64,000 bases of DNA, taken from the NCBI GenBank assembly GCA_036489315.1, contig DASXFZ010000026.1:1-64000 (forward strand), written 5' to 3'. The stretch comes from Candidatus Cybelea sp. (GTDB lineage Bacteria > Vulcanimicrobiota > Vulcanimicrobiia > Vulcanimicrobiales > Vulcanimicrobiaceae). This document shows positions 47,330-63,991 of the stretch, piece by piece. How positions within the stretch are numbered: the stretch's first letter is position 1; every line of letters starts with the position of its first letter. The notes under the pieces are model-generated. The model was not told where the DNA came from. It searched no databases and was given only the letters and a program-made list of their open reading frames with translations. Made by a program: the position numbers and the translations under genes.

Positions 47330-48066
47330 TGAAGCTCGCACTCATCGGCGATCCGGTCGAGCATAGCGCCAGCCCCTCGCTGCAGCGCGGCTTCCTTGAA
47401 GAGGCCGGCATCGACGGCGATTATCTGGCCATTCGCGTGCCGTCGGGCGAGGGCGGGCGCACGATCCGGCGCCTCCGCGAAGACGGCTTCACCGGCTGCA
47501 ACATCACCTATCCGCTCAAAGAAGAAGCCTTCGAAGCCTGCGAGGCGCTCACCGACGAAGGGCGGCGCGCCCAAGCCGTCAACACAATTTTCTTCGGTCA
47601 TCAGACGCTCGGCACGATCACCGACGGCATCGGTGCGCGCACCGCGATCGAGGCGCTGCTCGACGAGCCGGTCGCGCTCAAACGAATCGGCGTGCTCGGT
47701 TACGGCGCGAGCGCGCGAGCGATTCTTGCCGAGCTGCACGACACCGACGCCTACACGTTCGTTTGGGGCCGCGATGCCGATCGGGTGAGCGCCGCGTGCA
47801 ATATCTTCGAAGCGCGTCCCTGGCCGCCGGAGAATCCGCCTGAAATCGTCGTGAGCACGCTGCCGCCCGAAGCGCGCCTGCCCGAAGAGCTCGTGGCGCA
47901 GCTGCGCGCTGCCGATCTCGTGATGGATGCAAACTACGGGTCGCGCGCGAACTTGGGGCGCCAGCTCGGCCGGGAAGTCGTCTCCGGCGACGCGATGCTC
48001 GAGGCGCAAGCGCGCGCGAGCTTCGATTTCTGGCTCGCGCATTTGGATCGCGTTTCCAATACCTAG
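47326..48066 (+). CDS. aroE: Shikimate dehydrogenase
   Basis: AroE reduces 3-dehydroshikimate with NADPH in aromatic amino acid synthesis. SASPSLQRG binds the substrate, Lys65 in NITYPLKEEAF and Asp100 in ITDGIG are the catalytic pair, Asn86 is in AVNTIF, and GYGASARAIL is the cofactor loop. The 246-residue length is slightly short for the family. It overlaps yqeG by four bases; aroQ for the preceding step is far away at 62.7 kb. Confidence 0.92.
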   Translation: MMKLALIGDPVEHSASPSLQRGFLEEAGIDGDYLAIRVPSGEGGRTIRRLREDGFTGCNITYPLKEEAFEACEALTDEGRRAQAVNTIFFGHQTLGTITDGIGARTAIEALLDEPVALKRIGVLGYGASARAILAELHDTDAYTFVWGRDADRVSAACNIFEARPWPPENPPEIVVSTLPPEARLPEELVAQLRAADLVMDANYGSRANLGRQLGREVVSGDAMLEAQARASFDFWLAHLDRVSNT

Positions 48067-61787: not shown

Positions 61788-62672
61788 TCATGACACTCGA
61801 GCGGACAGCTCCCTTACCTCATCCGCGGTAAACACGTATTCGGTTTTGCAGTATTCGCAGGTGGCTTCGGTGAGGTCGCGTTCGCGGGTGAGAGCGAGCA
61901 GTTCGTCGGCGCCCAGGCCGAGCAGCACCGCTTCGACCTTCGCGCGAGTGCAGCGGCACGCGAAGCGCACATCGAGCGGGCGGATGGCGCGCAGTTCCGT
62001 GTCGCCGGCGATCGAACGCAGCAGCGCCTCGGCATCGGCGCCCTGCGAAATTTGCTGCGTGACCGGCGGCATCGCGACGGCGCGTGCTTCGAGCGCCGCG
62101 AGCAGCTTTTCGTCGGCACCGGGCAGCGCTTGCGCGATAATACCGCCGGCGGCAATGACGCCGTTGGGATTCGCCAGCACGCCCAGCGCGACGATGCTGG
62201 GAATCTGTTCGGATTGCGCGAGGTAGGCGGCTAGATCTTCGGCGATCTCGCCGCTTGCCAGCGGAACGACGCCGACGTACGGCTGCCCGACATCGGTCGA
62301 GCGCGTCACTTGAAGGGAACCTTTCCCAACCGCGCCCGCAACGTTGAACTTGCCGCGCTCGTCGACGGGAAGCTCTACTTGCCCGTTGCGCGCGTAGCCG
62401 CGCGCGCCGATCGTCTGTTCGTCGAGAAACCATGCGTCGGCCGCAATATTCCCGAGCGGCCCGTCGCCGGCGATCTGCAGCGAAATTCGCTCGTTGCCCT
62501 TGAGATTGGCGGCCAGAAGCGCGGCGCCGGTTGCTAATCGCCCGACCGCGGCCGTGGCCGTCGGCCAAAGGTCGTGCCGATCGCGGATCTCGCCGACGAG
62601 ACCGGTCGTAATGGCGGCGGTGATCGCGATGCCGGCGTCGACCGCGGAGGCGGCGAGGATTCTGTCGGGCAT
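61788..62672 (-). CDS. hslO: Hsp33 redox-regulated chaperone
   Basis: Hsp33 protects proteins during oxidative stress when its zinc site is oxidised. The 294 residues have LKGNERISLQIAGDGPLG, the linker region, and the C-terminal zinc cysteines CRC and CEYC. The gene is divergent from aroQ, with 52 bases between starts. Confidence 0.95.
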   Translation of the reverse strand: MPDRILAASAVDAGIAITAAITTGLVGEIRDRHDLWPTATAAVGRLATGAALLAANLKGNERISLQIAGDGPLGNIAADAWFLDEQTIGARGYARNGQVELPVDERGKFNVAGAVGKGSLQVTRSTDVGQPYVGVVPLASGEIAEDLAAYLAQSEQIPSIVALGVLANPNGVIAAGGIIAQALPGADEKLLAALEARAVAMPPVTQQISQGADAEALLRSIAGDTELRAIRPLDVRFACRCTRAKVEAVLLGLGADELLALTRERDLTEATCEYCKTEYVFTADEVRELSARVS

Positions 62673-62724
62673 GAGCGCCTCTGGGGCAAAGGCTCGCGCT
62701 TTTCCTCCAAAGAAGGGCCCAACG

Positions 62725-63159
62725 ATGCGCGTTTTGGTTTTACACGGGCCAAATCTGGATCTGCTCGGCGAGCGAGAGCCGGAGCTCTACGGAACGCAAA
62801 CACTCGAGGAACTCAACGGCGCGATTCTTCTGGCCGCGAAGGAGTTCCATTTCGAGGTTCGCTGCGAGCAGTACAACGGCGAAGGCCGCCTGATCGACGC
62901 GCTGCACGCCGCTCGCAAAACCGATGCCGGCGTCGTCATCAACCCCGGCGCCTACGCGCACTATTCGTACGCGATCGCCGACGCGATCGCCGCGATCCGC
63001 ATCCCCGTCGTCGAAGTGCACCTGTCGAACGTCGCCGCCCGAGAGGAATTTCGCCGAACGAGCGTGACGGCGGCAGCCTGCCGGGGAGTCGTGACCGGCC
63101 TCGGCGCGGCCGGCTACATCCTCGCGCTGCGCGCGCTCGCGGAAATTCTCGCCGCCTGA
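62725..63159 (+). CDS. aroQ: 3-dehydroquinate dehydratase, type II
   Basis: AroQ makes 3-dehydroshikimate, the AroE substrate. ATG 62725 follows AAGGG. VLVLHGPNLDLLGEREPELYG includes catalytic Tyr22, NPGAYAHYSYAI binds substrate, and EVHLSN carries the histidine. The 144 residues match the family length. An open frame upstream is antisense to hslO and is left out. Confidence 0.95.
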   Translation: MRVLVLHGPNLDLLGEREPELYGTQTLEELNGAILLAAKEFHFEVRCEQYNGEGRLIDALHAARKTDAGVVINPGAYAHYSYAIADAIAAIRIPVVEVHLSNVAAREEFRRTSVTAAACRGVVTGLGAAGYILALRALAEILAA

Positions 63160-63207
63160 AGGCAGCCGAGCCACGCTGTTGAACGATTGCTCCTCTCCGA
63201 GCCGAGT

Positions 63208-63212
63208 AGGAG
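63208..63212 (+). promoter_or_regulatory. Ribosome-binding site AGGAG choosing the TTG start of the HU gene
   Basis: AGGAG lies eight bases before TTG 63221, where the protein would begin MTKADVVD as in typical HU. The upstream TTG 63179 has no such site. Confidence 0.6.
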
Positions 63213-63220
63213 ATGCGACG

Positions 63221-63535
63221 TTGACAAAAGCAGATGTCGTCGACGCCGTCGCCATAGAGGCTGAGCTCTCCAGGCGAAAGGCTGGCGAAATAGTAGACTT
63301 GATCCTCAACGAGATCAAGGGAGCGCTCCTGAAAGGCGACCGCGTCGCGCTAAATCCTTTCGGGAGCTTCGTCGTGCGCTCGCGCAAGGCTCGTGCCGGA
63401 CGCAATCCGAAAACCGGAGAGCCGATTAACATCCCGTCACGAAAGGTTCCGGCCTTCGTCGCCGGAAAATCGCTCAAGGACGCGATCGGCGGCAACCGCT
63501 CGCGCAGGAAGCGGAAAAAAGCCAACGGGCTGTAG
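63221..63535 (+). CDS. HU/IHF-family DNA-binding protein
   Basis: From TTG 63221 the product has 104 residues. TKADVVDAV, GDRVALNPFGSFVVRSRKARAGRNPKTGE and IPSRKVPAFVAGKSLKDAI are the HU/IHF core and DNA-clamping arms. A basic tail (RSRRKRKK) is longer than in E. coli HU. It organises the nucleoid. The last three codons and the TAG stop form the 5' end of tRNA-Pro. Confidence 0.92.
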   Translation: MTKADVVDAVAIEAELSRRKAGEIVDLILNEIKGALLKGDRVALNPFGSFVVRSRKARAGRNPKTGEPINIPSRKVPAFVAGKSLKDAIGGNRSRRKRKKANGL

Positions 63536-63600
63536 CGAAGCTTGGTTATCGCGCTAGTCTGGGGGACTAGAGATCGCTGGTTCGAATCCAGTCAGCCCGA
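63526..63600 (+). tRNA. tRNA-Pro(GGG)
   Basis: CGGGCTG (63526-63532) pairs with CAGCCCG (63593-63599) as the acceptor stem. The D-arm is GCGAAGCTTGGTTATCGC, the anticodon stem CTAGT/ACTAG has the loop CTGGGGG with anticodon GGG, and TTCGAATC is the T-loop. Discriminator A; CCA is not encoded. Ten bases overlap the end of the HU gene on the same strand. Confidence 0.95.
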
Positions 63601-63609
63601 GATTAATCC

Positions 63610-63646
63610 GGCCAGAACTTTAGACGAGTTTTGGCCGTTTCTATTT
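63610..63646 (+). terminator. Hairpin downstream of tRNA-Pro
   Basis: GGCCAGAAC (63610-63618) pairs with GTTTTGGCC (63628-63636) with one G-T pair, followed by GTTTCTATTT. It is placed to end the joint HU/tRNA transcript. Confidence 0.5.
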
Positions 63647-63691
63647 AAGCGGTAAGGGGTTCGCACGCCGGCCCGCCCGAAGGCCCATTGT

Positions 63692-63991
63692 ATGAAGATC
63701 GGGACCCTCGAGATGAAGATCGCGCGCGTTGAGGGATTTCAAGTGAGGATTCGCACGTCGGACGGCCGCGATATTCGCTCGGACCGCGAAGGGATGCCGC
63801 CCTGGCCCTATGAAAAGGCCGCGCGCGACCGCTGGTCGGTCGCTCGCGACCGCTGGTCGGTCGCTCGCTGGAAGCAAGAGCGCTTTGTTAGCCTCTATCC
63901 GGGATTTGGTGTAGACGTGCTCGATGGCGATGGAACGCCCGTCGAGTTCGGGCAAACGCTGCTGGAGAGCGTTCGCGAAAGTTATGATTGA
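63692..63991 (+). CDS. Small hypothetical protein with a 21-bp internal duplication
   Basis: ATG 63692 gives 99 residues: MKIGTLEMKIARVEGFQVRIRTSDGRDIR, then two exact copies of RDRWSVA and a C-terminal YPGFGVDVLDGDGTPV. The frame ends at TGA 63989-63991. The composition is protein-like, but I recognise no family. The duplication is in frame. Confidence 0.6.
   Translation: MKIGTLEMKIARVEGFQVRIRTSDGRDIRSDREGMPPWPYEKAARDRWSVARDRWSVARWKQERFVSLYPGFGVDVLDGDGTPVEFGQTLLESVRESYD

Follow-up and report, generated by a model that had tools for sequence, protein, structure and literature searches.

RNase P cuts before the 5′ end of tRNAs, and where a tRNA follows a protein-coding gene on one RNA, the position of that cut relative to the stop codon decides what is left of the message. 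In mitochondrial tRNA punctuation, a terminal U or UA is completed to UAA by polyadenylation. Escherichia coli carries an mRNA-tRNA operon, secG-leuU (reportedly described by Mohanty and Kushner in 2008), in which the secG stop reportedly lies upstream of leuU and cutting leaves an intact open reading frame (ORF). In Alphaproteobacteria, Gammaproteobacteria, and Nitrospirae, the gene for tRNA-Sec (selC) is nested in or partly overlaps selB, an arrangement presented as the first case of a tRNA nested within an ORF of bacteria by Mukai (2021; PMC8124441), where overlapping mitochondrial tRNAs are also mentioned. Here, we describe a gene for an HU-family DNA-binding protein that ends inside tRNA-Pro(GGG), together with its relatives and with other gene/tRNA pairs of the same kind.

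Anatomy of the HU/tRNA-Pro(GGG) junction

The window, that is, the whole stretch of DNA analyzed (64,000 nucleotides), runs from base 1 to base 64000 of C26, a contig in a draft genome of 3.09 Mb (G000). The family to which this genome belongs is probably part of Vulcanimicrobiota (formerly Eremiobacterota), a phylum whose first isolate is reported to be Vulcanimicrobium alpinus (PMC9758169). The junction and its surroundings contained the following features:

62725..63159, + strand, aroQ, type II 3-dehydroquinase, upstream gene of the putative unit (Pfam DHquinase_II, 187 bits; ORF and stop)
63160..63220, + strand, aroQ-HU spacer, containing the HU ribosome-binding site AGGAG (63208-63212)
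63221..63535, + strand, HU-family DNA-binding protein gene, 104 codons, TTG start, TAG stop (63533-63535)
63526..63535, + strand, HU/tRNA overlap, 10 bases, tRNA nucleotides 1-10
63526..63600, + strand, tRNA-Pro(GGG), CCA not encoded (ARAGORN; RF00005, 62.7 bits; cloverleaf fold)
63609..63637, + strand, intrinsic-terminator-like stem, then TTTCTATTTA, 8 nt after the tRNA

The HU product was matched to PF00216 at 104.4 bits (Pfam search; residues 1-89 against profile positions 1-89 of 90), and the match across nearly the whole profile assigns it to the HU/IHF family. The tRNA has a cloverleaf, a GGG anticodon, and a perfect 7-bp acceptor stem (CGGGCTG/CAGCCCG) pairing from 63526; it is the single tRNA-Pro(GGG) in the genome, alongside tRNA-Pro with TGG and CGG anticodons. 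A sequence-only reading of this DNA had proposed that HU ends with the first ten bases of the tRNA on the same strand, and the ORF and ARAGORN coordinates confirmed this, with the ORF stop lying inside the tRNA. In HU, the shared bases correspond to the final base of AAC followed by GGG CTG TAG, and the TAG is U8-A9-G10 of the tRNA; tRNA-Pro(GGG) thus supplies HU's stop codon. The same reading had placed the stop in the acceptor and the start of the D-arm, of which the D-arm part stood and the acceptor part did not: the TAG consists of the U8-A9 linker and G10 (the first D-stem base), and the 5′ acceptor strand forms the last sense codons. Farther downstream, a 20-odd-base unit, GACCGCTGGTCGGTCGCTCGC, occurs twice in tandem (window positions 63820-63870) inside the ORF that follows the tRNA.

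The position of the stop requires no special cause, because TAG occupies positions 8-10 in 24 of the 47 tRNAs of the genome (ARAGORN), and an ORF that runs into such a tRNA must end at this triplet whenever it is in the one frame, of three, that reads it. The feature that calls for explanation is a real gene abutting a tRNA without a spacer, rather than the stop itself.

Distribution of the overlap and selection on it

Eighteen genomes of the genus were searched for tRNA-Pro(GGG) and HU. The tRNA was present in 17, with 75/75 bases identical in all 17, and was not found in the 18th. HU lay directly before it in 11 of the 17, and six of these 11 had the ten-base overlap (G000, G007, G008, G009, G013, and G014); the other five were non-overlapping, with HU-tRNA gaps of 0 nt (G003), 1 nt (G002), 2 nt (G015 and G017), and 16 nt (G010). 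The HU body between aroQ and the tRNA was lost in the remaining 6/17 (G001, G004, G005, G006, G012, and G016), leaving an aroQ-to-tRNA distance of 31-90 nt. These HU-deleted loci (L167, L168, L170, L176, L177, and L182) reflect deletions that were at least partly independent. A more distant HU paralogue was found in all 17 genus genomes with an HU match, and G011 had no HU match, neither of the tRNA-linked kind nor to the distant paralogue. In the remnants of G006 and G016, the HU tail is still in frame to the U8-A9-G10 stop (AARKVPAFVAEESLGEEKTNGL and AARKVPAVVAEKPLKAKKSNGL), and the G005 remnant retains the HU tail residues SNGL; these remnants suggest that the overlap predates the deletions that produced them.

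The family-wide comparison drew on 84 HU loci. tRNA-Pro was downstream in the fetched stretch at 63 and within 150 nt at 49; at the 21 loci without it, the stretch covered only 0.45-1.5 kb past HU, so that linkage farther away would be missed. Among the 49 loci with the closer linkage, the 38 belonging to other genera had HU-tRNA gaps of 4-132 nt (median, 57 nt) and no overlap (0/38). None of six HU loci from another family of the class had tRNA-Pro, and a plasmid search returned nothing but tRNA matches. A scan of genome contigs gave 80 loci, most of them HU from other phyla. The spacers of two other-genus loci (L018 and L021, in G027 and G028) carry TGCTATGAT and then a hairpin immediately upstream of the tRNA, a pair that may constitute a promoter for the tRNA and a structured leader.

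The sequence-only reading had named conservation in relatives as a check on the overlap, and a sequencing error hiding a different HU stop as a way in which it could fail; the same ten-base state recurs in five further species of this genus, which supports the overlap and speaks against such an error. We regard it as highly improbable that HU's real stop is masked by a frameshift error or by misplacement of the tRNA 5′ end, given that the six species reach the overlap with different tails (KANGL, KVSGL, KSNGL, and KSHGL) and that the acceptor stem pairs perfectly from its first base. Such an error is conceivable in G003, in which an A-run differs by one A from that of the sisters G009 and G014 and the stop consequently falls just before the tRNA.

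Among the six overlapping species, pS was 0.58, with the overlap still present. HU pN/pS was 0.198 in these species (15 pairs) versus 0.249 in the five others (10 pairs), and aroQ pN/pS was 0.251 and 0.263, respectively; HU is therefore under purifying selection with and without the overlap. The 17 codons that precede the tRNA offer each overlapping species 5-10 single-base substitutions by which HU would terminate sooner, which makes escape from the overlap easy. Purifying selection combined with easy but unfixed escapes indicates that the overlap is tolerated. The sequence-only reading had seen in the overlap a conflict or coupling between making the protein and making the tRNA. Neither a conflict of any consequence nor a selected coupling finds support, in view of the HU pN/pS of 0.198 in overlapping species, the unfixed early-stop changes, the 5/11 HU-bearing members without overlap, and the similar overlaps in unrelated gene/tRNA pairs (below).

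The overlap label required at least three changes on well-supported branches (aroQ tree and concatenated tree). When remnants were scored as overlapping, the fewest changes were 5, and the fewest HU losses were 4 (concatenated tree). The aroQ tree was weak and the concatenated tree only slightly better; with 5 starred branches of 17, the latter gives a poorly resolved sequence of events.

Transcription and predicted fate of the transcript

Neither strand of 62650-63750 yielded a promoter-like site in a scan for sigma-70-type sites. Two terminator-like stems were found in the region versus 1.4 expected from shuffles, a result that is weak alone, and terminator-like stems after the tRNA showed no enrichment in the genus (3/17 members versus 110/680 shuffled). 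A block, GGGAGGA...TGCGTATAyC, was seen in some form between aroQ and HU in 10 of the 12 genus spacers (alignment, by eye) and was absent from those of G000 and G002; we read it as a candidate promoter common to HU and the tRNA. G005 keeps the block upstream of the tRNA despite the HU deletion, as would be predicted for a promoter that drives the tRNA as well, and in G000, where it is missing, the unit would depend on the aroQ promoter. From the gene order, the lack of a spacer, the lack of a promoter-like site within 62650-63750, and the terminator-like stem after the tRNA, we infer a joint transcript, with aroQ, HU, and tRNA-Pro(GGG) forming one transcription unit. Given this anatomy, RNase P cleavage would remove the HU stop from the transcript.

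Alternatively, tRNA-Pro could be transcribed separately from a promoter inside HU, in which case most of the tRNA would not derive from HU mRNA and the stop would rarely be removed. We consider this unlikely: the scan, which covers sites of the sigma-70 type, found no candidate there, and transcripts from upstream would still run through because a terminator could not fit ahead of the tRNA. It draws some support from the TGCTATGAT motif in the HU-tRNA spacers of G027 and G028, which resembles a promoter −10 element (by eye), and from five of the six HU-deleted species, in which aroQ and the tRNA are 31-61 nt apart and HU sequence is scarce or absent.

The explanation that we favor, and judge to be probable, is erosion of the spacer in a compact mRNA-tRNA operon, the overlap being tolerated rather than a dedicated regulatory device. 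In an ancestor of the genus, the HU-tRNA spacer (about 57 nt in other genera) would have eroded with loss of HU's own stop, and the HU frame would then have extended into the tRNA to end on the built-in U8-A9-G10; the final state is the observed sequence, and the order of the steps is our reconstruction. Each transcript would serve first as an HU messenger, until cut. A ribosome terminating at nucleotides 8-10 would hold the 5′ half of the tRNA unfolded, so that termination and RNase P cleavage would be mutually exclusive at that moment, and early rounds of translation may end before the tRNA is complete. In a folding model, tRNA-Pro folded as a cloverleaf in context, and the energy went from −39.2 to −28.8 kcal/mol when tRNA nucleotides 1-22 were held open (the 22-nt ribosome footprint being an assumption of the model); at this cost of about 10 kcal/mol, translation of the HU 3′ end and tRNA folding should be mutually exclusive. 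Once the ribosomes are gone and the tRNA has folded, RNase P would cut at 63525/63526, freeing the tRNA and leaving a nonstop HU mRNA ending in ...GCC AA, and ribosomes remaining on it would be rescued by tmRNA/SmpB. Trans-translation is described as acting on truncated mRNAs without a stop (PMC3929946), and the genome encodes both tmRNA (129 bits, Rfam) and SmpB (191 bits). The tmRNA locus (L081; G000:C10:74821-75175) has an Rfam match and no ARAGORN call and is possibly a divergent tmRNA.

Other gene/tRNA overlaps and comparison with known systems

Overlaps of enolase with tRNA-Met(CAT) were found at 5 of 30 enolase loci of the family. The enolase ORF enters the tRNA by 21 nt in G000, with TAG at tRNA positions 19-21, and by ten in G005, G013, G023, and G064, with TAG at tRNA-Met positions 8-10; the G023 contig ends inside tRNA-Met, which ARAGORN therefore does not call, and that overlap was identified by eye. 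The G000 overlap is at L061 (G000:C58; tRNA-Met at 47835-47906), and the relatives' loci are L262, L265, L274, and L275.

A survey of junctions covered 181 tRNAs in four genomes (47, 45, 45, and 44), using between-genome BLASTP hits over 60 bits, curated by eye. Rows that translate a tRNA (tRNA-Phe, tRNA-Asp, tRNA-Lys, and tRNA-Gly), shadow second frames at tRNA-Arg and tRNA-Ile, and two unclear tRNA-Met rows (L297 in G013 and L321 in G010) were left out. At 24 junctions, a conserved gene ended within 60 nt before, or inside, a tRNA, and six of these overlapped: HU/Pro and enolase/Met in both G000 and G013, rpmG/Trp in G013, and HNH-like/Gln in G025. None of the seven junctions surveyed in G010 overlapped. 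The G013 rpmG-like ORF overlaps tRNA-Trp by 2 nt (L302; tRNA at 2438), its stop being a T followed by the AG that forms the first two bases of the tRNA, and the G025 HNH-like ORF overlaps tRNA-Gln(CTG) by 15 nt (L336), with TAA at tRNA positions 13-15; the rpmG and HNH-like labels come from peptides read by eye, with no family search.

Several further long ORFs entering tRNAs in G000 were rejected as genes. A 463-amino-acid (aa) ORF that enters tRNA-Leu(TAG), with the anticodon as its stop, and ORFs of 135, 129, 125, 97, 95, and 88 aa (seven in total) had no Pfam match, and a 109-aa ORF entering tRNA-Gly was rejected by eye, as it partly translates the preceding tRNA gene.

A wider interpretation would be that tRNAs in this family donate stop codons to housekeeping genes (HU, enolase, and rpmG), with each RNA acting as either messenger or tRNA precursor and RNase P as the timer that ends messenger life and sends the last ribosomes to tmRNA; we hold this to be distinctly unlikely. 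It is also quite improbable, in our judgment, that HU protein and tRNA-Pro are alternative products of one RNA under an evolved switch, with RNase P setting the number of HU translations or HU translation delaying the tRNA. Five of the 11 HU-bearing genus members lack the overlap, at least three label changes are forced by supported branches, HU is deleted in six members, the eno and rpmG pairs overlap tRNAs likewise, and we know of no role or functional link of HU with tRNA-Pro. In favor of such a switch are a geometry that makes the two uses of each RNA mutually exclusive (−39.2 to −28.8 kcal/mol in the model), the persistence of the overlap in six species at pS 0.58 and in deleted remnants, and the fact that the same hypothesis has been put forward for selB/tRNA-Sec (PMC8124441).

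The locus offers a natural case in which tRNA maturation should destroy the stop of the preceding housekeeping gene, in bacteria whose genomes measure about 2-4 Mb. As a test system, it would show cleanly in which sequence a single RNA is translated, folds into its tRNA, and is cut by RNase P, and also how much nonstop mRNA cells tolerate. For annotation, it carries a warning that gene callers forbidding overlap between coding sequences and tRNAs would trim or drop such genes. Searches of open-licence papers turned up no account in which HU, enolase, or rpmG overlaps a tRNA.

Like secG-leuU, the HU locus has a protein gene followed by a tRNA on what would be one transcript, a tRNA 5′ end made by RNase P, and a terminator (here a terminator-like stem) after the tRNA; unlike secG-leuU, cutting here would remove the stop of the protein gene. 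As in mitochondrial punctuation, excision of the tRNA would take the stop from the preceding mRNA, but adding A to the cut end ...GCC AA gives AAA (Lys) and no stop, unlike the poly(A) completion of mitochondria. With selB/selC, as described in PMC8124441, the locus shares a same-strand tRNA over the 3′ end of the upstream ORF, a stop inside the tRNA (at nucleotides 46-48 in Dyella/Luteibacter), variation of the trait between close relatives, and a nonstop mRNA from processing, which is proposed there too. It differs in that the overlap is 10 nt and ends on U8-A9-G10, compared with about 48-96 nt in selB/selC, and in that SelB binds its overlapping tRNA, a role that HU is not known to have toward tRNA-Pro and that a general class of such overlaps would not require. 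In addition, several unrelated gene/tRNA pairs overlap in this bacterial family. The HU case is a variant on selB/selC, with a short overlap, a U8-A9-G10 stop, housekeeping genes, and several pairs in one family.
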